20,937 bases of DNA, taken from the IMG/VR virus record IMGVR_UViG_3300031952_001943, positions 1-20,937 of that record; one strand, 5' to 3'. The DNA is from a virus. This document shows, piece after piece, positions 1-12,373 of the stretch. How positions within the stretch are numbered: position 1 is the first letter of the stretch; every line of letters begins with the position of its first letter. A program made the translations under genes and the position numbers. The notes under the pieces were generated by a model. It did not search any database. It was not told the DNA's origin and worked only from the letters and a program-made list of their open reading frames with translations.

Positions 1-333
1 CGTTCGCCTTCTCGATGTCGGTGCGGAGCTTCAGTCCAAGGCTCATGGCCGAGTCCTTCCAGTTCACCAACTGCGCCTGCTTACCACCCACCGACACCAC
101 GAGGATCGCCCGCTCCGGCTTCACCTGCGCCACGGCGGCCAGCACTACGTTCGTCTTGCCGAGACCCGGCTCGTCCATGAGAAGGTATCCCCCATGCACC
201 GCCAGCCCTTCGAGGATGCGCTCCGCTCCCTCGATCTGGTGCGGGTAGAGTGAACGACCGTCCTTCATCTTGCGAAACTCCGGCCGGAGTTTCGCCTTTA
301 CGTCAGGAAGGAACTCGCGGTAGTCTGTGACTG
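1..333 (-). other. Start of SNF2-type superfamily 2 helicase domain (cut by window edge)
   Basis: In the same frame as the giant protein, the sequence reads DYREFLPDVKAKL, then SLYPHQIEGAERILEGL (Q-motif-like HQ), then GGYLLMDEPGLGKTNVVL (motif I, Walker A, with K1740), then ERAILVVSV (motif Ia region). This order is typical of SNF2/DEAD-like superfamily 2 enzymes. The usual DEMGLGKT appears here as DEPGLGKT. The DEAH-like motif II and the second RecA lobe would lie beyond the left edge. Confidence 0.85.
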
Positions 334-3300
334 CAACTTCCTGTTTCGGATCGTCTCGTACTGCCGCTTCCACTGGCGCATTTTCTCGAACAGCGACTTC
401 TGCTCCTGCTCGTTCAGAAGCTCGATGCCGTCCAGTGCCACCACCGTCTTCGGATCGAGTGGGTTTGACTCCTTCGGGTTCTCCTGTTCCACGGCCTATC
501 CCTCCCTTCGGCATATCCTTCGTCGGATCGACGAGGACGGTCTGAATGAATGTCTTGCCCGTCCGCGTGACCATGATCTTCTTGCGGATGAGCTTCGGGT
601 TGTCCTTCTTCCTCCCGGCCTTCAGGAGGTCAACGAGCGTCGCCCATCTCGACCGGATGAATCGCCCCGGAGGGAGAAGTACCGTGTCAGGATGTGCCCA
701 CCGCTTCGCCGTGTACGTCTTGCCTTTGCGCTTGACGTAGACGATCTTCGGGAACTTCGCACCACGTTTCGAGACGGCCTGTCCTGCCTTCAAGAGGGCC
801 AGCCCCTCCTCCATCGTGAGACCGGCCTTCTCAAAGAGCCTCCCCTGAAACGCTTCCCGGCCGATGTAGGTCTCGAAGTCGAGGTCACTCTCACCTTCGG
901 TGCGGCTCCCCGAGGTTTCGAGAGAGGACACAACCTCGACCTTGTGCGGGTTGATCGCCCGGTACAAGGCGTCCAGCATCTCGATCTGAACCGTCGTGAG
1001 GTGCTGAGGAAGGGCAACCTCCATGTCCCCGCCGATCTCGCCGAGGTTGGACAGCTTGACGGCATGGTACTTCTTCACGAACCAGTAGGGGCTGATGTAG
1101 TCCGAGGATTCACCGTAGTAGTCCGGCGCGTGGCCCTCTTCGAGTGCCCTCGCCGCTTCTGCCGTCCGAACGTGATCGCTCGGTTCCCCAATGCGCCTCC
1201 CGGCGAGCAGTACCCCATCCGGGAGGAGGTAGATCGCCTCCTTCCAGTTCTGCGTCGTGCCGATCTCCTGCTTCAAGTCCTCAAGGACGGACTTCGGCGT
1301 GATCTTCTTCGGCTCCCGTTCCTTCGTGACCACCGCTTTCTTCGTCCGGGGATCGGTGCGATAGTACCCCTTGTGCTTCGGAGATGGGGAGACGTAGACA
1401 CGCTTCGACTTCTCGAAAGCCTTCGCGTAGGCCAGTGCCCGCTCCGGCACCCGGAACGTGCGGCCCGCTTCGTCCACGATCCTCGCAAATCCCTCGCCGA
1501 TCTCCTTCACCCGCCCCACGATCCCACGGCCAAGAGAACCGGACGCCGCCGCACTGATCCGCACGGTCTCTCCCACATCCGCCGTCGGCTTCTTCTCCTC
1601 GGGTTGCTTGTGCTCATGCCGACGCCGGATGAACTCCTCAGCCTGCTCCCGCGTCTTCCCGACCTTCAGCCACCGGCCGCCGTGCTGGATGTAGAAGCCG
1701 TCCGGGCGCTTCTGAATGTCGTCCGGCTTCGGAGCCGGTGCCTGTTGCTTCGGCGCTTCACCCGGCTTCACCCACCGCTTCTGGTAGATGACACCCGTCG
1801 GCCGGTGCACCATGATCTGTTGCTGGATGAGTCCCGGAGCCGGGGCGGCTTTGAGTAGGCTCTTCAGAAGAGTGAGGCCGCTCTTCGTGATGCAGGCCCG
1901 GATCAGCGGCTCGACCTTTCCGAACTCCTCGTCCGTCAGGTAGGCGTGCTTGTAGACCTCGGGAAGGTTCTCTCCCGTGAGGTAGTGACCGTAGGGATGG
2001 ACAGCACCCGCCTTGTATTCGCCCCCCTCCTTCCGAGTCTTGTTGGCCGCGAACTGCTCGAAACACCGCGCCCACACTTCCATCGGGGAAGCTATGTACT
2101 CACTGATGTCCAAGAACCGGGAGACCGTTCCCATCCCCGCCAACTTGTCCCACAGTGCGACGAACTCGGTGCTCGGAGATGTCTCTCCGAAAGGCCGCAA
2201 CGCTCGGTTCACCACGTCGGGGGACAGCCACTTCTGCACTTGCTCGGCGGTGATCGGGTTGTTCCCGATACCCACATGGTAGTTCTTCACACCATGCTTC
2301 CGAGCATCCTCAAGCCATGCGTCCACGAGTTCCCGAGCCTCTTTCATGTCGATGCTGTAGAGAGCCTCTTTCGCCACCTCATCGTAGAGAGCCGATAGCA
2401 CCACTTTCTGCGGAAGGGATGAAGCCCCCCGTATTTCCTCATTCGACTGACGGTCGAACTCCTTGAGATTCAACCCGCGCATCATTGTGACGCCAGAATG
2501 GTAGTCAACAGCGTGCCCGATCTCATGCCCAATCGTTTCTTGGGAGTCACGCCGGATGTGGATGACGTTGTCCGACGGAACGAAGTCTCCCCGAACGGCC
2601 TCTCGGTTGAACCCGAAGCTGGTCTCGACGGAAAGTTCCACACCCTTGTCGTGAAGGAAGTCCCCGAGATCGCCGAAAGCCTCCCCGAGGTTGTTCAGGC
2701 CACGTTCCAGATTGTTCTGCGCCTCCAGAGGAAGAACGTGCAGACCTCGAACCTCCTTGAATCCTCGAAAGACAGGACGACCCTCTCCCTTCTTCTGCTC
2801 GGTCTCGGCGGGTGCACTCTCTGTGGCGGGTTCCTCACCCGGCTTGATCCACCGATCCGAGTAGAAGGTCTTCCCCGCCCTGTGTACCAGAACCTTCCTC
2901 TTCACCAGACCGGGTCGTGCCTTGAAGAGATCGAGTGCCTTGCGCCACAGGCTCTTCTCCTCCGGCTCGTAGGCAAGCTCCTCGGGCGTGTAGCGGAACT
3001 CCTCGGGTTGCTGGATGCCTTCACCCGGCATGGCGGGCACGATCTTGCCGCTCACCCGGTCGTACTTCTCCTCGTCCGGGAAGATGTGCTCCCACCAATG
3101 CCGACAACAGTTGTGCACGACGCACCCTCGCACAATGTAGCTCTCGTCATTTTCTACCGCCAGATTGTAGGTCGTTCGATGCTGACTACTCTGTGAAAAC
3201 CGAACCACTCGAACGCTGGAGACTTCTACGTCGGTGAACTCATACTCGTGCCGATCGTTTGCGACCACTCTCTGAACTTCCTCAACACAGGAGTCCACAC

Positions 3301-5374
3301 CCTTTGTGATCTCCGTACCGGAAAACCGCAACACTCGAAACCCCTCGGCTTCGATCTCTCGTTGCCGTTTCGCATCGTACTCCTTTTGCCGAAGATGCCA
3401 GTATTCCCCATCGCACTCGATCAGTACGTTCGTTCCAGAAACTCGGAAGTCTGCGAAGAACCTCCGCACGGGGAACTGCCGTTCGTAGCCGATGCCAACC
3501 TGATCCAATGCCTTTGCGAACCGAACTTCCAAAGGACTTCCCTTCGCTCCCTTCGCACAGGATTGCATCAGCTTTCTCCGGGACTCTGGAGTATTCAACC
3601 AGTTGAACTCGGCCATCTTTCGTCGAGCTACTACACGCGCGGCCTCTGTGATTTTCCGACGATCCTCCTTTGAGGTGCTTGCATACCTTTTCTGGACGAT
3701 CTCTCCCATCTGCCCTTTCTTGATCGCTCGGTATTCCGGCTTTTCCCACGTCCTCCTCATTGATAGCGTAGAGCGGCACGATGCACTGCACACGTCATTA
3801 GAGTCGAACCGCTCCGCATCACTCCACATGATGAGTTTTCCACAGACCTTGCACCGCTTCGCAAGCACTCGAACCTTGTCCCCTTTGCAAAGGTCTTTTG
3901 CGTCTACCCACCCTTTGCTCGTAAGGAACGGGTGCTCGAAAGTGCTCCGAAGAATGACCCGTCGATGCGTGTAGCTCCCCTTCTCACGAGCAAGGACGTG
4001 AAGCTGGACGTACCCCCTCGTTTCCTGTCCTCGATGAACTTGTGTCACGCGCCGGAAGCGCCCCTGATGGGTGAGAACAAGGTCTCCCACTCTGATTTTG
4101 GAAATCCCCATCCATCCCTTTGAAGTGAAAACCGGAATGGTGGGGTCTATGAAACACGGATGCGAAGGGATCGCCGCCCACCACTGGCTCATCTTCCGGC
4201 CGATGTTGTTCTTGCCGATCCATGTCACGCCGGTTGCCCACGGATCGAGTTCGATCCCGATGCGGTCGTCCTGTCTCTGCTTCACCGACGGATCGGCCAC
4301 GAGGAGGTAGATGTTCCCGATGAACTGGTTGCACCCACCCGCACCCTCCGGCGGATAGAACGGCCCGGAGTAGACGACGTAGGCTTTCTCGCCCTTCTCG
4401 GTCGCGTCCAGCACGGCCGCGAGGAAACCGTTGTTCATGGCCGTGCTCATCTCGGTGATCGCGATACGCCGCCAGTCCCGTTGCAGGTATTCGAGGTTGG
4501 CCTTGCTGTACTTCCCGCCGAGAGCATCCTGCGGGTCGATGTGGAAGAGACGGCTCGCGAGTGTGCTCGGGCCAGCACCGTCCTCGATGCTTCCCGTCAC
4601 CACCTTGCGAACGGCGTCCACGATCCCTCGCCGCAACGTGCCGTCCTTGATCGAGAGGTACTGACCGGCGCTCTGCCTTGCCTGCTCGACGCACCGCCGC
4701 ATGACCGGCCCCATGTCCACCGCATCTCTCGTATCTGAAAGATTTCGGGGCAATCCGTCCTTGAACTTGTCCGAGACCTGTGTCAGCGAGAGGTTCTTCA
4801 GTCCCTCCCGATCCAGCCCCTCCACGGCCCCATACGAGTATCGAAGCATCCCTAGCAGGCCAGCACGGAGGCCCATCTCGTCCCCGATGTCCCCGAGGTT
4901 TTCACGGAGGAACTCGACCATCCCGGTCTCCATTTCCTTCCACTGTGCCTCTGTCATGGGTGTACCAGTCTCGGGATTCGTGAACGTCCTGCCTCCGAGC
5001 TTCATCGGCTTTATGGTGCCTTTACCCGCGATGCCGTACCGCTTGTAGTAGTCGTGGAGGGGCGCTGGATCAGAAAGGTCTTCCAGAAGCGCCTTCAGCG
5101 CGTCCGGTATTGCCCACACGGGGGCTTTCGCCGCTTTGATGAGATCGGCCACGGGAACCGTGACCGACTTGGAGATGCTGTCAGGATCGACCCCGAACTT
5201 CCGCGACACGCCGCGCATCACTTCGCGCATCACGTCTCGGACGTAGGCGATGACGGCCTCCTGATACTCCCGCTCGAAACGGAACTCGGACAGAGGAAGC
5301 TCCCGCACCTCCCGCGCCTTCGCGAGGAGCGCCGACTGATTCAGCCGTTCGCCGTTGGTGATCGAGAACTTCAC
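1..5374 (-). CDS. Giant polyvalent protein, partial: MuF head-morphogenesis domain, intein, HExxH peptidase, SNF2 helicase start
   Basis: The minus frame is open from a GTG at 5374 to the left edge, giving 1791 full codons with no stop, so the C-terminus lies outside the window. Residues 1-406 resemble MuF-type head-morphogenesis proteins, ending in WWAAIPSHP. A 349-residue intein (407-755) follows, then the extein resumes with CCRHWWEHIF, so splicing would restore the MuF-like HPxCR motif. After repeat B2 comes a zinc-peptidase-like region with HEIGHAVDY (HEIGH at 950-954). Next are repeat B3, an SH3-like segment (GRGIVGRVKEIGEGFARIVD), repeat A4, a region with YLLPDGVLL, repeats B4 and B5, and a SNF2-like ATPase with DEPGLGKT (D1734 to T1741). 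Known MuF proteins attach at the portal, and polyvalent proteins are thought to be injected with phage DNA. The GTG start has only a weak ribosome site. Frame continuity was checked by translating the whole stretch by hand. Confidence 0.88.
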   Translation of the reverse strand, partial: MKFSITNGERLNQSALLAKAREVRELPLSEFRFEREYQEAVIAYVRDVMREVMRGVSRKFGVDPDSISKSVTVPVADLIKAAKAPVWAIPDALKALLEDLSDPAPLHDYYKRYGIAGKGTIKPMKLGGRTFTNPETGTPMTEAQWKEMETGMVEFLRENLGDIGDEMGLRAGLLGMLRYSYGAVEGLDREGLKNLSLTQVSDKFKDGLPRNLSDTRDAVDMGPVMRRCVEQARQSAGQYLSIKDGTLRRGIVDAVRKVVTGSIEDGAGPSTLASRLFHIDPQDALGGKYSKANLEYLQRDWRRIAITEMSTAMNNGFLAAVLDATEKGEKAYVVYSGPFYPPEGAGGCNQFIGNIYLLVADPSVKQRQDDRIGIELDPWATGVTWIGKNNIGRKMSQWWAAIPSHPCFIDPTIPVFTSKGWMGISKIRVGDLVLTHQGRFRRVTQVHRGQETRGYVQLHVLAREKGSYTHRRVILRSTFEHPFLTSKGWVDAKDLCKGDKVRVLAKRCKVCGKLIMWSDAERFDSNDVCSASCRSTLSMRRTWEKPEYRAIKKGQMGEIVQKRYASTSKEDRRKITEAARVVARRKMAEFNWLNTPESRRKLMQSCAKGAKGSPLEVRFAKALDQVGIGYERQFPVRRFFADFRVSGTNVLIECDGEYWHLRQKEYDAKRQREIEAEGFRVLRFSGTEITKGVDSCVEEVQRVVANDRHEYEFTDVEVSSVRVVRFSQSSQHRTTYNLAVENDESYIVRGCVVHNCCRHWWEHIFPDEEKYDRVSGKIVPAMPGEGIQQPEEFRYTPEELAYEPEEKSLWRKALDLFKARPGLVKRKVLVHRAGKTFYSDRWIKPGEEPATESAPAETEQKKGEGRPVFRGFKEVRGLHVLPLEAQNNLERGLNNLGEAFGDLGDFLHDKGVELSVETSFGFNREAVRGDFVPSDNVIHIRRDSQETIGHEIGHAVDYHSGVTMMRGLNLKEFDRQSNEEIRGASSLPQKVVLSALYDEVAKEALYSIDMKEARELVDAWLEDARKHGVKNYHVGIGNNPITAEQVQKWLSPDVVNRALRPFGETSPSTEFVALWDKLAGMGTVSRFLDISEYIASPMEVWARCFEQFAANKTRKEGGEYKAGAVHPYGHYLTGENLPEVYKHAYLTDEEFGKVEPLIRACITKSGLTLLKSLLKAAPAPGLIQQQIMVHRPTGVIYQKRWVKPGEAPKQQAPAPKPDDIQKRPDGFYIQHGGRWLKVGKTREQAEEFIRRRHEHKQPEEKKPTADVGETVRISAAASGSLGRGIVGRVKEIGEGFARIVDEAGRTFRVPERALAYAKAFEKSKRVYVSPSPKHKGYYRTDPRTKKAVVTKEREPKKITPKSVLEDLKQEIGTTQNWKEAIYLLPDGVLLAGRRIGEPSDHVRTAEAARALEEGHAPDYYGESSDYISPYWFVKKYHAVKLSNLGEIGGDMEVALPQHLTTVQIEMLDALYRAINPHKVEVVSSLETSGSRTEGESDLDFETYIGREAFQGRLFEKAGLTMEEGLALLKAGQAVSKRGAKFPKIVYVKRKGKTYTAKRWAHPDTVLLPPGRFIRSRWATLVDLLKAGRKKDNPKLIRKKIMVTRTGKTFIQTVLVDPTKDMPKGGIGRGTGEPEGVKPTRSEDGGGTGRHRASERAGAEVAVRENAPVEAAVRDDPKQEVAVTDYREFLPDVKAKLRPEFRKMKDGRSLYPHQIEGAERILEGLAVHGGYLLMDEPGLGKTNVVLAAVAQVKPERAILVVSVGGKQAQLVNWKDSAMSLGLKLRTDIEKAN
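518..586 (-). repeat. Protein repeat B, copy B5 (giant protein)
   Basis: It encodes RKKIMVTRTGKTFIQTVLVD followed by PTK, preceded by LVDLLKAG and placed just before the SNF2 part. Confidence 0.8.
686..751 (-). repeat. Protein repeat B, copy B4 (giant protein)
   Basis: It encodes PKIVYVKRKGKTYTAKRWAH followed by PD, preceded by LALLKAG. Confidence 0.82.
1337..1408 (-). repeat. Protein repeat A, copy A4 (giant protein)
   Basis: It encodes SKRVYVSPSPKHKGYYRTDP followed by RTKK, at residues 1323-1346. It is preceded by KAFEK, as A2 is preceded by KSFEK. Confidence 0.88.
1751..1825 (-). repeat. Protein repeat B, copy B3 (giant protein)
   Basis: It encodes QQQIMVHRPTGVIYQKRWVK followed by PGEAP, just after the peptidase-like region. 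Confidence 0.85.
1830..2830 (-). other. Zinc metallopeptidase-like domain (HExxH) inside the giant protein
   Basis: This segment lies between repeats B2 and B3 of the giant protein. It contains IHIRRDSQETIGHEIGHAVD, with the zincin motif HEIGH at residues 950-954. Downstream, SPMEVWARCFEQFA (E1099) resembles the conserved E...ARxFE segment seen in phage polyvalent-protein peptidase domains and could supply the third zinc ligand. Family knowledge suggests such domains act on host or virion proteins after injection. A role in maturing this polyprotein is my inference. The domain borders are approximate. Confidence 0.72.
2831..2902 (-). repeat. Protein repeat B, copy B2 (giant protein)
   Basis: It encodes KRKVLVHRAGKTFYSDRWIK followed by PGEE, just after the MuF extein resumes. 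Confidence 0.85.
3110..4156 (-). other. Intein with Vsr/DUF559-like homing endonuclease domain
   Basis: This is a 349-residue in-frame insertion within the giant MuF protein. It starts with Cys1 (CFIDPTIPVFTSKGW) and has a block-A-like segment ending IRVGDLVLTH. Block B contains STFEHPFLT with T72 and H75. Block F/G reads TYNLAVENDESYIVRG then CVVHN, ending in the canonical His-Asn, and the +1 extein residue is Cys. The Hint splicing fold occupies about 1-100 and 305-349. Between them are a Cys cluster (C102, C105, C123, C127) and a PD-(D/E)XK-like nuclease resembling Vsr/DUF559 (SPLE at 207-210, FFADF at 233-237, ECDGEYWH at 247-254). The insertion lies in the most conserved MuF motif, as is usual for inteins. 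GC looks lower than the host gene: hand counts of 60-base blocks give 50% at 3661 and 57% at 3421. All splicing residues are present, so activity is likely. Confidence 0.93.
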
Positions 5375-5383
5375 GCCGTCACT

Positions 5384-6829
5384 CTAGCCTCTCGGAGGCT
5401 GGTTGGGCTTCGCCTGTGCGATGGGCGTCCCGGTCTTCATGGACGACGCACCCGCACCGCGCACGAGCTTCTTCGGCCGGGGTTCCGGCGTTTGCAACTT
5501 CGCGAGTGGCGCAGTCGAAGGCTTTGGTGGTGCTTTCGAGCCGAGGGTCTGCGCGATCTGTTGCGGGAAAGCCTTCACGAGCCGCCCATCCTCCAACGTG
5601 CAGTTGAGGTCGTCGTCGGTGAAGATCGACTTGCGGAGGAAGGACTTCCCGTGAACCTCTCCACCCTCCTTCTTCCGCTGGTATGATGCTTTTCGCGCCT
5701 GCGACTCTTCGTGCTTTCTCACCGCTTTACCCTCGGGGGTCTGGTAGAACAAGTCGTGACGACGCTTATCCTCCACAGTGTCGCGCCAGCGATTGTACCC
5801 AAACTCCAAATCTTTCAAGCCCTTCTTTTTCCGCCACGTATCGTAGGGATGCTCCAAACCCTTTTCTCCTGCCTCTGCCCGCCGAAAAAGGTCTGCTACC
5901 CTCTCTTCCGCACTCGCGCCTTTTGTCTTCTCATGAGCCGCTCTCGCCTTTTCCCCACGAAAAGGTTCACCCTTCGGCCCGAACTTCTCTACGGTCTCTT
6001 TCCGCGTCCACGGCTTCTTCGCCAGCATCTCATTGGTGAAGTCAACGCCAGCCTGCATCCCCTTGACTTTCGCGGCAATCGCGTCCGTCCGTTCCTTGTC
6101 CCCAACGAATCTGGCCGCCCCTGTGTCCTCCGGCTTCTCTCCCGTGCTCACCCACTGCTTGCGCTGGAACGTCTTGCCCCCGCGCTTCACCGTGACCTGC
6201 TTCTGCGTGAGTTTGGAACGGTCGAAACCCTTCAGAAGACTCTCTTCGAGAAGCGCCGAGGCGTCTTCGAGACTCTTCTCGACCGAGGGCGGCCCGGACT
6301 CCTTGCCCGTCTCGATGCCGAACCGCTTCGCGGCCTTCCTGATCCTCGACCAGATCGACTTCTGTTGCTCCGGGCTGTAGACGCCCGCGTTCTTCGGCTT
6401 GCTGAAGTAGGAGATCGCCGCCCGAACGTGCCCTTCGTCGTCGATGGGGTACTTGAAGTTCTTCGGATCGGCGTACTGCTTCTCCTTCTTCGCCCCGCCC
6501 TCGCGGTACTCCTTCGGCGGCGTCTTGTGCCCGCCCTCGACCCCCGCCTTCGGGAGAGCCTTCACGAGCCTGCCGTCTTCCAGCGTGGCGCTCTTCAGCA
6601 GATCGTCGCCGTCCTTCTCGAATACACTCTTCTTCATGGCTCCAGCCTCCATTTTCTTCAGCCGTGTGTAGTAATTAGAAAACTCGGCAAGGTGATCGAG
6701 GGCAATCTTCCGAGCCAGCTTGGGATCGTTCGTGTGCTCCATCTCCACCTTGACGCCCATCGCCAACTCCCTCGGATCGGCGTCCTTCTCGGTGAAGTTT
6801 TCCTTGTCGGCCTTGCCTTCCATGTTCAT
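5384..6829 (-). CDS. Multi-module virion cargo-like protein: DUF5661 + DUF6582 + linker repeats
   Basis: This 481-residue protein starts at ATG 6829, which overlaps the upstream stop in an ATGA junction behind AGGAAG. A longer in-frame extension to 7045 overlaps the previous gene and is rejected. Residues about 22-60 (GVKVEMEHTNDPKLARKIAL) match my memory of DUF5661. Residues about 84-175 (DPKNFKYPIDDEGHVRAAIS, KSIWSRIRKAAKRFGI) match DUF6582. Repeat copies C3 (67-94), B1 (210-234), D2 (326-390) and C4 (399-423) follow, and the tail is Pro/Lys/Ala-rich. Nothing catalytic is visible. It sits just before the giant MuF gene and shares repeats with the sigma-like and giant proteins, which suggests a capsid-packaged or injected protein. 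That role is inferred. Confidence 0.85.
   Translation of the reverse strand: MNMEGKADKENFTEKDADPRELAMGVKVEMEHTNDPKLARKIALDHLAEFSNYYTRLKKMEAGAMKKSVFEKDGDDLLKSATLEDGRLVKALPKAGVEGGHKTPPKEYREGGAKKEKQYADPKNFKYPIDDEGHVRAAISYFSKPKNAGVYSPEQQKSIWSRIRKAAKRFGIETGKESGPPSVEKSLEDASALLEESLLKGFDRSKLTQKQVTVKRGGKTFQRKQWVSTGEKPEDTGAARFVGDKERTDAIAAKVKGMQAGVDFTNEMLAKKPWTRKETVEKFGPKGEPFRGEKARAAHEKTKGASAEERVADLFRRAEAGEKGLEHPYDTWRKKKGLKDLEFGYNRWRDTVEDKRRHDLFYQTPEGKAVRKHEESQARKASYQRKKEGGEVHGKSFLRKSIFTDDDLNCTLEDGRLVKAFPQQIAQTLGSKAPPKPSTAPLAKLQTPEPRPKKLVRGAGASSMKTGTPIAQAKPNQPPRG
5561..5635 (-). repeat. Protein repeat C, copy C4 (DUF5661/DUF6582 protein)
   Basis: It encodes RKSIFTDDDLNCTLEDGRLV followed by KAFPQ, a shortened copy in the same protein as C3. 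Confidence 0.78.
5660..5854 (-). repeat. Protein repeat D, copy D2 (DUF5661/DUF6582 protein)
   Basis: A module of about 65 residues: EHPYDTWRKKKGLKDLEFGY, then NRWRDTVEDKRRHDLFYQTP, then EGKAVRKHEE. It aligns with D1 almost without gaps. Confidence 0.88.
6128..6202 (-). repeat. Protein repeat B, copy B1 (DUF5661/DUF6582 protein)
   Basis: It encodes KQVTVKRGGKTFQRKQWVST followed by GEKPE. Pattern of family B: hydrophobic-x-V-x-R-x-G-K-T-F-x-x-x-x-W-V/I-x-x-G-E, preceded by an LLK segment. Confidence 0.85.
6548..6631 (-). repeat. Protein repeat C, copy C3 (DUF5661/DUF6582 protein)
   Basis: It encodes KSVFEKDGDDLLKSATLEDG followed by RLVKALPK. Confidence 0.82.
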
Positions 6830-7197: not shown

Positions 7198-7559
7198 TAC
7201 GAAACCAGCACGATGTTGACTACGTTCGCATGGGTCGTGTCGAGGTTCGTGAGCTTCAACGCCGTGATCGCCGATCCATCGGCCAACACAACGATCTTCC
7301 CGGATGAGACGGCTGTGACGATGGCGTTCCACTTCGCGCTCACCGCGTAGTCCGCGAAGATGAAGATCGCCGTGGCCGAGGTGATCTCGCCGAAGTCAAC
7401 GACGTGATCCGCTTCTGCCGCCGTCAGCGACACGTCCTGCACCACCGCTTTCGTGATTCCAGACAAGGTTTTGTTCACCACCCTGTTCACCCGGTCGTTC
7501 ACCGAACTCGTGGTCGCCGCACCGTAGAGCCGGAGCGAGATTGAGAGTGTCGCTTCCAT
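7197..7559 (-). CDS. Small beta-rich protein, possible virion structural component
   Basis: This 120-residue protein starts at ATG 7559, one base after the upstream stop (TAGCATG). It is Ala/Val/Thr/Ser-rich with alternating hydrophobic stretches (TSATAIFIFADYAVS, NAIVTAVSSGKIVVLADG, ALKLTNLDTTHANVVNIVLV), suggesting a compact beta sandwich. It has no Cys, no membrane segment and none of the A-D repeats. Its place between cargo-like genes in the head operon fits a minor head, decoration or fibre-like protein, but I recognise no family. Composition differs sharply from its Lys/Arg/Glu-rich neighbours. Confidence 0.75.
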   Translation of the reverse strand: MEATLSISLRLYGAATTSSVNDRVNRVVNKTLSGITKAVVQDVSLTAAEADHVVDFGEITSATAIFIFADYAVSAKWNAIVTAVSSGKIVVLADGSAITALKLTNLDTTHANVVNIVLVS

Positions 7560-7560
7560 G

Positions 7561-8640
7561 CTACTTCCCCGCCTTCTTCCGCAGGGCGTTGTGCGCCATC
7601 TTCTCGGCGGTCTCGTCGCTCATCTTCGGGTTGCCCTTCTTGAAGCGGGCGGCCATCCCCTTCGACTCGGCGCACTTCAGTAGGTCGCTGGCCTTCTGAA
7701 GCGACGCCATCGCGCCCTCTTCGGACGCCACCTTTGGCCCACCGAAATCGGCACCGGGGTTCTTGGACTTCTTGCCCTTGTTGGCGAGGCGCTTGCCCAT
7801 GCCACCCGGCTCTTTGTCTCCGCACTTCTCCAGCGGAATCTCGACGAGGTTGCCGTCCACGATCTCGTGGCTCTTCAGGAACTCGTCACCGTCACCGAAT
7901 ACCGAAGTCCTCTTGTCCGCGTTCATGATGTACCTCCCGACAGCGCCCCAAGACTTCAGGACGCGCTTGTCGTCGAAATCAGGGAAGTTCAAGCTGAACT
8001 TCCGAACCCGGCCGTCCGACGTGCGAACTTCCGTGTAGTAGTCCTCCATCTTGTCGCTCAACGTGAAGCCGTTCCCCGGAACGTACTTCCCGGCATCGCC
8101 CCCCGTGGTGTAGATCATCTGGTGCTTGCCGCCCTCGCTGTAGATCACGCTCTCCTGATTGAAGTCCTTGCCAAGCGCCGTGACCTCCTCGCGGTTCGCA
8201 TCGTGCACCAGCACGAGGTAGCTGTTCTCTTCGCCGCCGTAGTGTCCCTTGACCGGCGTGTAGACGTAGCCCAACTCCTTCAGCTTGCCCCCGAGCTTCT
8301 TGTGGCGGGCCTCGAAGTAGGGATCGTCTCCCTTCATGGCCTTCTCTTCGTCGGAGCCGGGGTTGCGCCCGGCCGAGACCAGCGCGTAGCGCACCTTCTC
8401 GGACTTCAGGAGCACCTCCAAGTCCATCGAGGACATGGCGTACTCGCGGCCCTGCCCCTTCTCCTGCCGCTTGGTGCCGTTCAAGAAGCGATAGACGGCT
8501 TCCTGCCTGTGATGCTCCGGCATCTCCTCGTAGGAAGCGTACCGCTTCTCGGCCGGTTCCTTCGGATGGGCCTCGCGAGGATCGAGCCGGTAGTAGGGTT
8601 TGCGCCCGCTACTGCCGCCGGGAACGAAAATCTTCTTCAC
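7561..8640 (-). CDS. DUF3293-like protein with N-terminal repeat A and internal repeat C
   Basis: This 359-residue protein starts at GTG 8640, sharing a base with the upstream stop (TAGTG), with AAGGGG upstream. A longer reading to 8760 runs into the upstream gene and is rejected. It begins directly with repeat A3 (VKKIFVPGGSSGRKPYYRLD). Residues about 84-185 resemble DUF3293: YALVSAGRNP, RHKKLGGKLKELGY, EENSYLVLVHD, then LGKDFNQESVIYSEGGKHQM. Repeat C1 is at 245-272. The last 45 residues are basic (SDETAEKMAHNALRKKAGK). DUF3293 function is not established. The repeats link it to the sigma-like and giant proteins. Confidence 0.85.
   Translation of the reverse strand: MKKIFVPGGSSGRKPYYRLDPREAHPKEPAEKRYASYEEMPEHHRQEAVYRFLNGTKRQEKGQGREYAMSSMDLEVLLKSEKVRYALVSAGRNPGSDEEKAMKGDDPYFEARHKKLGGKLKELGYVYTPVKGHYGGEENSYLVLVHDANREEVTALGKDFNQESVIYSEGGKHQMIYTTGGDAGKYVPGNGFTLSDKMEDYYTEVRTSDGRVRKFSLNFPDFDDKRVLKSWGAVGRYIMNADKRTSVFGDGDEFLKSHEIVDGNLVEIPLEKCGDKEPGGMGKRLANKGKKSKNPGADFGGPKVASEEGAMASLQKASDLLKCAESKGMAARFKKGNPKMSDETAEKMAHNALRKKAGK
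7825..7908 (-). repeat. Protein repeat C, copy C1 (DUF3293-like protein)
   Basis: It encodes TSVFGDGDEFLKSHEIVDGN followed by LVEIPLEK. Pattern of family C: S-V-F-x-x-D-G-D-x-L-L-K-S-x-x-L-E-D-G-x-L-V-K. Confidence 0.75.
8572..8640 (-). repeat. Protein repeat A, copy A3 (start of DUF3293-like protein)
   Basis: It encodes VKKIFVPGGSSGRKPYYRLD followed by PRE, at the extreme N-terminus. Confidence 0.85.
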
Positions 8641-10661
8641 TAGTCGGCCCCTTGCACTTCCGCTTCGGTCATGTGCCTGCCACGAACGGGGTGCATCCCG
8701 GCGGCCTTCGTCGCAAGCTCCTTCGTCGAGTACACCGGAGCCGGGCGCTCTTGGCCCCATCCCTTCTGCCCTTGCGGGATGTAGGTGAACCCGCCCTTGA
8801 TCTTCATGATGTCGCGAACCATGTCGTCCGCACCGAACACGCTCCCTACCTTGCCCTCACCCGCCGGTTCCCCGGACTCTGCCACGCGGGTCTGCTTCCT
8901 CTCACGAGCGGCCTTGCGAGACGCCGCATCTTCCTGCTTCCGAAGAGCCTGTCCCTCCGGGGTCTGGTAGAACTTCTTCCGTCGAGCATTGTCCTCCGTG
9001 ACGGCCTGCCAGTAGTTCCCCTTGAAGTCCAGAGGTTTCATCCCCTGCTTTCTCTTCCATGCGTCGTAAGGGTGCTCCTTCTTCGCCGCCGGAGTTTGCC
9101 CGCCCACCGTCCCTGTCATGGCTCCCGAACCATCGGGGAGCTTCGCCATTGTTGCCTTCTTCTCTCGCGGGTCTTGACGGTAGTACCCCTTCCGCTTCGC
9201 TGAAGGCTTCACGAAGATGCGCTTGCTCTTCTCAAAGGACTTTTCCTCATAGAGTGGTTCCGTTTCAGTCCTGTCGATGAAGTCCTCCAACATTCCTCGC
9301 GTGACGTGCTTAGGAAGAAAACCGCTGATAGAAGATGACCTGTCCCAAACGTAGTCACCGAAGGTTTGGAGCAGTTCTCGCTTCAACCCCACATTCTTCA
9401 CACCCTTCTCCGAGAGAAACGCCTCGACCACTTTCTTTGCCCTTGCATCGTACTGATCTTCCTCTTTTCGAGTTCTTGGATCGTTCCTGTAGTAGCCCTT
9501 GTGTCTCAGCGAGGGCTTCACGAAGATGCGCTTGGCCTTCGCGAGGAGACTCTGGCCGACCCGCATCACCCACCCGATCTTCGGCTCCTGCAACGCCTTC
9601 TCCAGCGTGACGATGTTCTCGAAGAGCGCCTTCTCCATGCGCTCGCCGACCTTCTCCAGTACGTCGTCGGGCACGTCGGTCAGGCCGAGGCTTTCGATGG
9701 CCTTCAGCATCTCCTCGGCCACGATGTTCTCGATGACCTGCGACGCCGTCTTGGCCGGGTACATTTCCCGCATCACCCACCCGCTCAGTGTCTTGATCCG
9801 GGCGAGGTGCTTCTCGACCCCCTGCCGCGTCATGCCCAACTGCTTCGCCACGGCCGAGTGCGTCGCGGGCCTCCCGCTCGTGCGCTGGTTCTCGATGAGA
9901 ATCTGGAGCACCTTCGACTGTGTGGGGTTGAGCTTCTGGTAGACCTCTTGCAGGATGCGGTCGGCGTTCATTCGCTGGAAGATCGCTTCGTCCATCGCCA
10001 CCGGCTCGTGCGCCGCTATCGTTTCGCCAAGCGAGACTACCTCGTCGCCCTCTTCGCCACCTCCCGCAACCGGCTTGTCGAGACTCACCTCACCCGGCCC
10101 GGCGCTCATCACGTCCACACCCATGCCGCCCCGCTTCTTCGTTGCGGCCGGGACGAAATACTCGTGCAGAGCGTCCCGGAGCCGCCGGTAGGCGTAGGTG
10201 CCGAACGTGGCGGGCTCACCCGTCGTCGAAAGGGTGATGGCCTTCTTCGGATCGAAAGTGCTCACGGCCTCCCACAGAGCCAGCCGCCCCACCTGTTGCG
10301 CGTCCTCGTCGGCACGGGACATCTTCGGCTTGTGCGCGTAGAGCCGGTCAATCCAGTTCCGTACCATCGCTCCGATCAGCCGGTCGTTCGTCTTGTAGAA
10401 CGTGCGGAGGGCGTCCTCGTTTCGCCGAACGCGGGCCACGTCCATCTCGCTCATGTCCCGGATGAAGTAGTCAGACTGCTTCGTGCGGCCCTTCGCCGCC
10501 CCCTCCATCTCGTGCTCCTCGATGGGCCGGATGTAGAACGTCTGCCAGTAGCCCTTCTTCGTCTGAATCTTCCGGGGGATCAGCCCCGCCCGGTCGATCC
10601 TCGGCATCGCGAAGCCCTTCTCTAGGAGCTTCTCCGGTATGGGAAGGATGAAACGCATCAT
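8640..10661 (-). CDS. Sigma-70-like factor fused to a virion-cargo-type repeat tail
   Basis: This 673-residue protein starts at ATG 10661, overlapping the portal stop as ATGA, with GAGAGAAGG upstream. Residues about 91-170 resemble sigma-70 region 2: ADEDAQQVGRLALWEAVSTF followed by DP, then FGTYAYRRLRDALHEYF. Residues about 244-295 form a region-4-like helix-turn-helix (LNPTQSKVLQILIE, then HSAVAKQLGMTRQGVEKHLA). An acidic/Gly linker separates them. The tail carries repeats A1 (376-400), A2 (479-502) and D1 (529-590). Sigma factors direct RNA polymerase to promoters, and a phage copy could switch on viral genes. Its position between portal and MuF genes, plus repeats shared with polyvalent proteins, suggests it may be carried in the virion. 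That is inference; the alternative is a normal late regulator. Confidence 0.85.
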   Translation of the reverse strand: MMRFILPIPEKLLEKGFAMPRIDRAGLIPRKIQTKKGYWQTFYIRPIEEHEMEGAAKGRTKQSDYFIRDMSEMDVARVRRNEDALRTFYKTNDRLIGAMVRNWIDRLYAHKPKMSRADEDAQQVGRLALWEAVSTFDPKKAITLSTTGEPATFGTYAYRRLRDALHEYFVPAATKKRGGMGVDVMSAGPGEVSLDKPVAGGGEEGDEVVSLGETIAAHEPVAMDEAIFQRMNADRILQEVYQKLNPTQSKVLQILIENQRTSGRPATHSAVAKQLGMTRQGVEKHLARIKTLSGWVMREMYPAKTASQVIENIVAEEMLKAIESLGLTDVPDDVLEKVGERMEKALFENIVTLEKALQEPKIGWVMRVGQSLLAKAKRIFVKPSLRHKGYYRNDPRTRKEEDQYDARAKKVVEAFLSEKGVKNVGLKRELLQTFGDYVWDRSSSISGFLPKHVTRGMLEDFIDRTETEPLYEEKSFEKSKRIFVKPSAKRKGYYRQDPREKKATMAKLPDGSGAMTGTVGGQTPAAKKEHPYDAWKRKQGMKPLDFKGNYWQAVTEDNARRKKFYQTPEGQALRKQEDAASRKAARERKQTRVAESGEPAGEGKVGSVFGADDMVRDIMKIKGGFTYIPQGQKGWGQERPAPVYSTKELATKAAGMHPVRGRHMTEAEVQGAD
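8892..9077 (-). repeat. Protein repeat D, copy D1 (sigma-like protein)
   Basis: A module of about 62 residues: EHPYDAWKRKQGMKPLDFKG, then NYWQAVTEDNARRKKFYQTP, then a basic helix. It is collinear with D2. Confidence 0.88.
9156..9227 (-). repeat. Protein repeat A, copy A2 (sigma-like protein)
   Basis: It encodes SKRIFVKPSAKRKGYYRQDP followed by REKK, about 100 residues after A1 in the same protein. Confidence 0.88.
9462..9536 (-). repeat. Protein repeat A, copy A1 (sigma-like protein)
   Basis: It encodes AKRIFVKPSLRHKGYYRNDP followed by RTRKE. Pattern of family A: K+-hydrophobic-V-x-P-S-x-x-+-K-G-Y-Y-R-x-D-P-R. Confidence 0.88.
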
Positions 10662-12373
10662 GACCTTCTCTCCTCGTCGTCACGCCCGCCGAACCGGATT
10701 GTGACGTACTCGTCTGCCAGTGACTTCGCGGTTTCGGACTCCTTCATGGCCTGATCGACGCCTGTGTCAACGGCCTGTCCCATCTCTTTGTCGTTCAGCG
10801 CGTCGAACCCACCCATGCCACCGCCCTCTTCCTCACCGGGCTGTCCGGGTTGCCCCGGCTGGCCGCCCATCGCCTGTTGCTGTTGCGCCATCTGTTGCTG
10901 TTGCGCCATCTGCTTCTCTTGCTGGATGAACTGGACGTAGGTGGGGTTCAGAATGATGTCGCCGCCTTCGATGGGGGGATCGTCATGGAGAGCGCGAATC
11001 TCATTGATGGTCTTGCGATACGAGACCTGCTGTTGCTCGATGGCCGTGGCTTCACGCTTGTCCTCGATCTCGACGCCCGTGAAGACGAACTCGAAGTCCT
11101 CCCATCCCTTCTGCTCGGCCATGATCTTGTTGAAGAAGTGCCGCAAGAAGAAGAGGAGGTCTTTCACACCCGCATCGTGGCTCGCCTTGCGTTGCTGATC
11201 GGCGGCGATACCGCTGTTGCCGATGCTGATCGACGATGACTGCTCGAAACGCAGGCCGACTTCGGAAGGGTCGATCTTGTGGATCGAGCAAATCCACGCC
11301 TGCAACGTGTCCATGTACTTCGTGTACTCCATGTCGCGGTTCGCCGGGGCGAGGTTGTTCCACCGTGCCCCGTACTGGAGGAACGGCGTCTTCCACATAC
11401 CCTTGATGCCGCCGAACATCGCCATCCACTGCCGCTGAAGCTCTTCGAGTTGCTCACGGTCGAGCGTCCCCGTCTTCGGATCGAAACTGAAGAAGCCCTT
11501 CGGCATGGCGCTGTTGGAGAACTGGTCACGGTTGTACGCCGTCGCAAAGAGGAATGACGTGATGGTGTCGATGCTCTGCTCCAGCGGGCTGTAGCCGAAC
11601 AATCGGAACTTCACGTCGCTCCGCTTGTTCATGAAGTCGAAGAGGAGGTCGTCCCACCCGAACTCGGACACGATCTGGTCGAGCACCATCTGGACGTACC
11701 CGACCTCCATGTCTCCGTTCAGCCCCTTGCGAGGATCGACCGGGAAGATCGTGGCCGCATCGAGAACGTGCCAGTCGAGTACCTGACCGCCGTTGCTCTT
11801 GCGAAGCTCAACCGCCACCTGATCTATCGTGAGGAGGTCGCGCACGAGCATTTCCATCGCGTCGCCGAGCTTGGGCCGCTTCTTCGGCTCACCCTTCGGT
11901 GGATCGAACTTGAAGCCGGTGTCGTCGAACCATTTCGTGATCTGCTTGATGGCCTTCTTCTCACCGGACGAAGGATCGCGCTCTTGATCCTTGATCGTGA
12001 TCTTCCAGCCGGGCTTGTCGTCGTCGGTGCTCGGCTCCGAGAACGTCCTGATCTGTGACGCCCGCTTGTTGTGGATCGCACCGACCACTACCACCTGATC
12101 GGCCACGCGCCGGAGGATGTCGAATGAGAGGTTGAAGAACTTGCGACGGATGCCACGCGGATCGTAGAGGCCGAACTCGTACCAGTAGAGGGGGAGTTGC
12201 TCACCCTTCAGCTTCGGGACTTTCTTGCCCGTGATGACCTTGCTCTCTTCGCCGCCTTCGACTTTGCGGGACTGATCGGCTTTCATGAGGTTGGCGAGGC
12301 TGGAGAAGTCTTCGCCTTCGGAGAAGTAGGGTACGAGGCTGTCCTGTGTGTTGGGATCGAACTCTTCAGCCAT
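10658..12373 (-). CDS. Phage portal protein
   Basis: This 571-residue protein starts at ATG 12373 behind GGAGG at good spacing, just after a terminator. Portal proteins form the dodecameric ring at the packaging vertex. Features fitting the family are the stem/wing-like core (VELRKSNGGQVLDWHVLDAA, TIFPVDPRKG), the conserved segment RLFGYSPLEQSIDTITSFLF, then AYNRDQFSNSAMPKGFFSFD, and QQVSYRKTINEIRALHDDPP near the end (compare the common T.NE.R...g..p). The C-terminal 80 residues are Gln- and Gly-rich with two MAQQQQ units, an unstructured tail. The stop overlaps the sigma-like gene by four bases, implying coupled translation. Confidence 0.93.
   Translation of the reverse strand: MAEEFDPNTQDSLVPYFSEGEDFSSLANLMKADQSRKVEGGEESKVITGKKVPKLKGEQLPLYWYEFGLYDPRGIRRKFFNLSFDILRRVADQVVVVGAIHNKRASQIRTFSEPSTDDDKPGWKITIKDQERDPSSGEKKAIKQITKWFDDTGFKFDPPKGEPKKRPKLGDAMEMLVRDLLTIDQVAVELRKSNGGQVLDWHVLDAATIFPVDPRKGLNGDMEVGYVQMVLDQIVSEFGWDDLLFDFMNKRSDVKFRLFGYSPLEQSIDTITSFLFATAYNRDQFSNSAMPKGFFSFDPKTGTLDREQLEELQRQWMAMFGGIKGMWKTPFLQYGARWNNLAPANRDMEYTKYMDTLQAWICSIHKIDPSEVGLRFEQSSSISIGNSGIAADQQRKASHDAGVKDLLFFLRHFFNKIMAEQKGWEDFEFVFTGVEIEDKREATAIEQQQVSYRKTINEIRALHDDPPIEGGDIILNPTYVQFIQQEKQMAQQQQMAQQQQAMGGQPGQPGQPGEEEGGGMGGFDALNDKEMGQAVDTGVDQAMKESETAKSLADEYVTIRFGGRDDEERRS
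10874..10909. repeat. 18-bp tandem direct repeat (2 copies) in the portal gene
   Basis: Two perfect copies of an 18-base unit (plus strand CTGTTGCTGTTGCGCCAT) lie end to end and encode two MAQQQQ units on the minus strand. This low-complexity segment in the portal tail is a likely site of length variation. Confidence 0.9.

Follow-up and report, generated by a model that had tools for sequence, protein, structure and literature searches.

A sigma-70 family protein with features of capsid cargo encoded beside the portal gene in phages distantly related to SPO1

Overview

The late operon of an uncultured phage encodes a 673-residue protein that is probably a virion-delivered sigma factor trimmed by the prohead protease. 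The protein combines a sigma fold with repeat modules, a conserved gene location and an enrichment of a head-specific sequence motif. Since it has modules in common with other head-operon proteins and bears likely capsid-protease sites, it is probably packed in the particle. We infer that packaging would be followed by cleavage, injection and early action of the protein. The window, which is the stretch of DNA analysed here and the entire 20.9-kb virus record, belongs to a phage group distantly related to SPO1; its TerL and portal proteins show ~26% and ~33% identity, respectively, to those of SPO1 and other Herelleviridae, as expected of distant relatives.

The sigma gene in the late operon

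The open reading frame at positions 8640..10661 on the minus strand, marked as a sigma gene in the preliminary description, is real, and it has sigma-70 family matches. Its ATG overlaps the stop codon of the portal gene in the sequence ATGA, with a good Shine-Dalgarno sequence ahead, and the TAG that ends it overlaps the GTG at which the following gene starts, so that it belongs to a late operon. TerL lies upstream, and the operon continues in the order portal, sigma protein, S-adenosylmethionine (SAM)-lyase-like protein, 120-aa protein, DUF5661/DUF6582 protein and MuF with attached domains. The sigma gene therefore does lie between portal and MuF, but three other genes separate it from MuF.

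The portal protein (10658..12373, minus strand) matches PF04860 (E=1e-17) and phrog_12. The gene following the sigma gene (7561..8640, minus strand, with a presumed GTG start at 8640) encodes a repeat-A-like tag joined to a SAM-lyase-like cargo protein (PF23780, E=1.8e-7), perhaps an injected anti-restriction SAM lyase; it has 4 protease-type sites of the kind described below versus 1.2 expected. The 120-aa protein (7200-7559, minus strand), which is without a clear family match, is encoded between the SAM-lyase-like gene and the gene of the DUF5661/DUF6582 cargo protein (5384..6829, minus strand, with a presumed start at 6829), which contains modules B and D. In the MuF-type head protein (2..5374, minus strand), which harbours an intein and runs off the window, the MuF part is joined to modules A and B and to the beginning of an SNF2-type helicase. 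This intein (~3107-4159, minus strand) bears a DUF559/Vsr-like nuclease, and a similar Hint region is seen in MuF genes of Gordonia phages. A promoter scan within the window gave one consensus match, equal to chance expectation.

Structure of the sigma domain

Residues ~83-295 of the protein form a sigma-70 family domain with regions 2 and 4. The preliminary description had spread these regions over the first 300 residues; both are present, but the domain is confined to this narrower span, in which regions 1.1 and 3 are not evident. Region 2 (residues ~83-175; 10137..10415, minus strand), the part with the helices for core RNA polymerase (RNAP) binding and -10 recognition, contains the core RNAP-binding motif DEDAQQVGRLALWEAVSTFD, FGTYAYRRLRDAL, and the helix-turn-helix of region 4 (residues ~236-295; 9777..9956, minus strand) is identified by both profile and model matches. 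Profile searches bear out the proposed sigma identity. PHROG 351 (RNA polymerase sigma factor) matches residues 80-290 with E=2e-17, and TIGR02937 (sigma70-ECF) matches residues 83-290 with E=4.7e-10 and 39.3 bits, slightly below its cut-off of 42.9, which the portal-linked sigma domains of the relatives all exceed (47.8-63.4 bits). The Pfam profiles Sigma70_r2 and r4 by themselves are sub-threshold in the window. A profile built from the window protein and six relatives finds sigma factors of known structure with E=4e-13 over a span that reaches from region 2 to the end of region 4, and its alignment to sigma F likewise extends through region 4.

The AlphaFold model consists of two helical domains of fair confidence with an uncertain linker between them (mean pLDDT 69.7), and its best structural matches are sigma factors. 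It superimposes on region 2 of sigma28 with an rmsd of 2.3 Å over 78 residues and on region 4 of sigmaE with 2.4 Å over 69 residues, so the sigma fold is present. The intact core-binding and -35-binding regions predict that the protein binds core RNAP and confers promoter specificity.

The region 2 motif with a tryptophan pair in primary sigma factors is FSTYATWWIRQAI. The corresponding FGTYAYRRLRDAL of the window protein is without this pair, and the inter-domain linker is poorly predicted, raising the alternative that a packaged, sigma-derived DNA- or RNAP-binding protein serves in host transcription shut-off or in organisation of the packaged DNA, not in the start of phage transcription. 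However, alternative sigma factors such as SigF are also without these tryptophans, and the core-binding region 2 and the -35-type region 4 are both kept across seven divergent phages, making such a role quite improbable.

Repeat modules flanking the sigma domain

The part of the protein behind the sigma domain contains two copies of repeat A and one repeat D. The first copy of repeat A, AKRIFVKPSLRHKGYYRNDPRTRK (residues 376-399; 9465..9536, minus strand), comes immediately after the tripeptide LAK, and the second copy, SKRIFVKPSAKRKGYYRQDPREKK (residues 479-502; 9156..9227, minus strand), immediately after FEK, whose lysine K478 is encoded at 9228-9230. Repeat D covers residues 529-614 (8820..9077, minus strand). 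The MuF protein also contains repeat A (hmmsearch iE 6e-17 or better), the SAM-lyase-like protein matches it weakly, and repeat D recurs in the DUF6582 protein with 46% identity (E=1e-19). Thus, the repeats are real and, as first described, shared with proteins of the cargo block, here the MuF and DUF6582 proteins, but they fill less than half of the C-terminal part instead of making up the other half of the protein. The N-terminal stretch resembles module B, but this similarity is not significant. Modules A and B of the window were compared with the modules of its AT-rich relatives and no homology was detected, and so the likeness of the modules across these phages is one of position only.

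Conservation of the portal-linked arrangement

A group of uncultured phages was collected through TerL and portal searches. The sigma domain is found downstream of the portal in seven of the eight distinct phages that have sequence there, namely G000 (the window), G008/G016, G012, G013, G015, G017 and G018, and it precedes MuF in every contig long enough to reach MuF. That this arrangement is kept in seven divergent phages lends further support to the packaging reading. The portal-linked sigma protein has ~250-340 aa in most relatives and is an 877-aa multi-domain protein in G012. The exception is G019, which is without a tagged sigma: an SNF2 protein comes after its portal, its sigma genes lie elsewhere, and the one sigma that was read completely is untagged.

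The sigma of L038 includes a DUF5661 domain, which in the window sits in another cargo protein; the cargo domains are thus shuffled from one polypeptide to another. Further domains seen in the cargo blocks of relatives are a zeta-toxin-type kinase, InPase (PF18823), and a MuF fused to InPase and an ADP-ribosyltransferase-like domain (loci L039 7267-9546, L037 7568-9010 and L028 10185-12593). Direct searches by tblastn and by pattern, made with the complete window protein or with the sigma domain, yielded no matches or weak ones, among them sigma factors of the SPO1 group; the sigma alignment is too diverse for use in a further scan. A scan of genome contigs found no prophage, and a search of named phages with a tagged protein gave no match. 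In a more distant group (L004/L005), there is no sigma match, and a giant polyvalent protein shows no enrichment of the motif.

A candidate prohead-protease motif

The pattern hydrophobic-x-K-S/A is abundant in the prohead protease and scaffold of the group, and one such site lies at the N-terminus of the major capsid protein (MCP). The protease and MCP of the window phage lie outside the window. The motif was first spotted by eye, with the hydrophobic class also chosen by eye, and a pattern scan then checked the K-S/A part and the hydrophobic position. When all hydrophobic-x-[KRE]-X patterns are ranked, the top two in protease plus scaffold are KS (z 10.2) and KA (z 4.8), and in the cargo set they are again KS (z 12.5) and KA (z 6.0). 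A T4-type LxE leader was also looked for, but no glutamate pattern approaches K-S/A in protease plus scaffold.

Motif counts were compared with those in shuffled sequences. Protease, scaffold and MCP together have 38 sites versus 7.4 expected, cargo proteins 171 versus 67, MuF proteins 43 versus 13.4 and sigma proteins 33 versus 13.6, whereas tail genes (19 versus 17), 122 other ORFs (69 versus 74) and untagged sigmas (1 versus 2.4) show no such enrichment. The reversed motif is not in excess in head or MuF proteins, with 2 occurrences in head proteins and 78 in cargo, and part of the excess in the sigma set may reflect composition because this set also holds 21 reversed motifs. An N-terminal motif is present in 28 of 39 cargo proteins and 16 of the 122 other ORFs (Fisher p=1e-11).

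The assignment as a cleavage motif is based on this enrichment and on one annotated site in a relative. The annotated mature capsid protein of Listeria phage A511 (Herelleviridae) begins at residue 24, QEDALK↓SFTTGYG, suggesting that cleavage occurs between K and S/A (arrow). The A511 protease bears a near copy of this stretch, and the MCP and protease of G008 likewise have one stretch in common; the N-terminal MCP sites of the group are equivalent to the A511 capsid maturation site. The A511 site has alanine, and no large hydrophobic residue, two places ahead of the lysine, and the exact motif is hardly enriched in the A511 scaffold (2 versus 1.3). The SPO1 scaffold has 11 sites versus 1.1, and the SPO1 MCP has LNK↓ALEAG. 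SPO1 gp2.12 (L012 2643-3266), a ParB-like protein encoded next to TerL, has 4 protease-type sites versus 0.6 expected, suggesting that it may also be capsid cargo.

Motif sites in the sigma proteins

The window protein starts with the leader MMRFILPIPEKLLEK (10617..10661, minus strand), which ends in the variant site LEK↓G. Since this is K↓G, not K↓S/A, the leader-site evidence is weaker in the window; the equivalent leader ends in relatives are LLKA, FLKA, LEKS, FFKS and LIKS. The stretch after region 4 (9537..9704, minus strand) has four candidate sites, K320 (MLKA), K344 (MEKA), K355 (LEKA) and K375 (LAKA). By itself, the window protein is borderline for the motif, with 5 sites versus 2.0 (p=0.055). 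All seven portal-linked sigma proteins have a site 4-25 residues behind region 4, and in five there is a leader site ahead of the module, or in six when the interrupted start of L036 is read through. In L036 (5291-5344), a TGA stands directly behind the sigma leader MKLLMKAKKMPIGTVSK, at the place of a glycine in relatives, which could be a sequencing error, a mutation or recoding. In the window, G012 and L033, the sigma domain contains no such site. Motif matches occur within region 2 or 4 in four relatives, and so some of the matches must escape cleavage.

The proposal that the protein is packaged, made originally from gene position and shared repeats, is thus strengthened as a prediction by an independent line of evidence, the prohead-protease-like K↓S/A sites that are specific to head-interior and cargo proteins and lie in the sigma proteins and beside their sigma domains. 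Phage sigma factors usually act as middle- or late-gene factors, as do SPO1 gp28 and gp34, and the window protein could in the same way be an ordinary sigma made during infection and left unpackaged, its gene lying in the head operon by chance and its modules being passengers of recombination. In agreement with this, SPO1 has a PHROG 351-related sigma, gp2.21, which like other Herelleviridae sigmas resembles the window protein in being of the sigma-70 family, in coming from a related lineage and in having its gene close to TerL. Unlike the window sigma, however, gp2.21 is without modules and cleavage sites, and its gene does not adjoin the portal, whereas the portal-linked sigma bears head-type sites and modules in seven phages. 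G012 and G019 have separate, untagged sigmas; that of G012 (81824-82297, minus strand) is a second sigma-like gene of 33 bits far from the head genes and is a candidate middle or late transcription factor. Moreover, a gene co-read with portal and MuF is made once late transcription is already under way. An ordinary role is therefore unlikely.

Comparison with known systems and proposed mechanism

The kind of system is familiar, namely injected proteins for host takeover, and the new element would be a sigma factor as the cargo. Internal proteins of T4 and its Alt protein have a capsid targeting sequence that is removed by gp21; they are injected, and Alt modifies host RNAP. The proteins described here are similar in arrangement, with N-terminal leaders that end in a candidate prohead-protease site, but this site is K↓S/A where T4 has LxE, and a sigma factor takes the place of an ADP-ribosyltransferase as cargo. 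N4, phiKZ and crAss-like phages bring in virion RNA polymerases with their DNA, and so their early genes need no prior expression. In the proposed reading, transcription machinery would likewise enter with the DNA, but instead of a whole polymerase only a specificity factor would be brought in, which would use the host core enzyme.

Polyvalent and MuF-fused multi-domain proteins encoded near portal and MuF have been proposed to be injected, and their modules include MuF, SNF2, ADP-ribosyltransferase, Zn-peptidase and linker modules (Iyer et al. 2017; PMC5512222). The window protein is similarly multi-domain, lies in the head gene neighbourhood and has repeats in common with the MuF protein, but here a sigma factor is among the cargo domains and the cargo is marked by capsid-protease-like sites; the word sigma is absent from the main text of that study. 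Since MuF is a head component and the enzymes attached to it are thought to be injected (PMC5512222), injection of the sigma protein would follow by analogy. Proteomics of the Herelleviridae phage CKA15 found that its particles contain the prohead protease as well as proteins not belonging to the structural module (PMC12282133), a result that does not bear on the K↓S/A motif. No report of a virion-packaged sigma factor was found in the literature searched.

These features lead to a plausible sequence of events for a virion-delivered, protease-trimmed sigma factor. The late operon encodes a sigma-70 family protein whose regions 2 and 4 are flanked by internal-head-protein modules and candidate cleavage sites, and this protein would enter the procapsid along with MuF, the SNF2 helicase, the SAM-lyase-like protein and other cargo. 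The prohead protease would then cut at hydrophobic-x-K↓S/A, removing the leader and tail modules and sparing the sigma core. Upon infection, the trimmed sigma would be ejected with the DNA, bind the host core RNAP and direct it to phage promoters ahead of any phage gene expression.

Implications

The protease-site signature may allow candidate capsid cargo to be listed from sequence alone in this phage group; candidates by this signature include the anti-restriction-like SAM lyase, the SNF2 helicase, a pyrophosphatase-like domain and an ADP-ribosyltransferase. Injection of entire RNA polymerases, or of enzymes that modify RNAP, is already known in phages. It is on balance rather likely that a lineage related to SPO1 carries a protease-trimmed sigma factor in its capsid, whose injection would place host RNAP on phage promoters at once, independently of host-type early promoters. 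If so, injecting a sigma factor would add a third and more economical route to the takeover of host transcription at time zero, and the early promoters of these phages would be freed from having to resemble those of the host.
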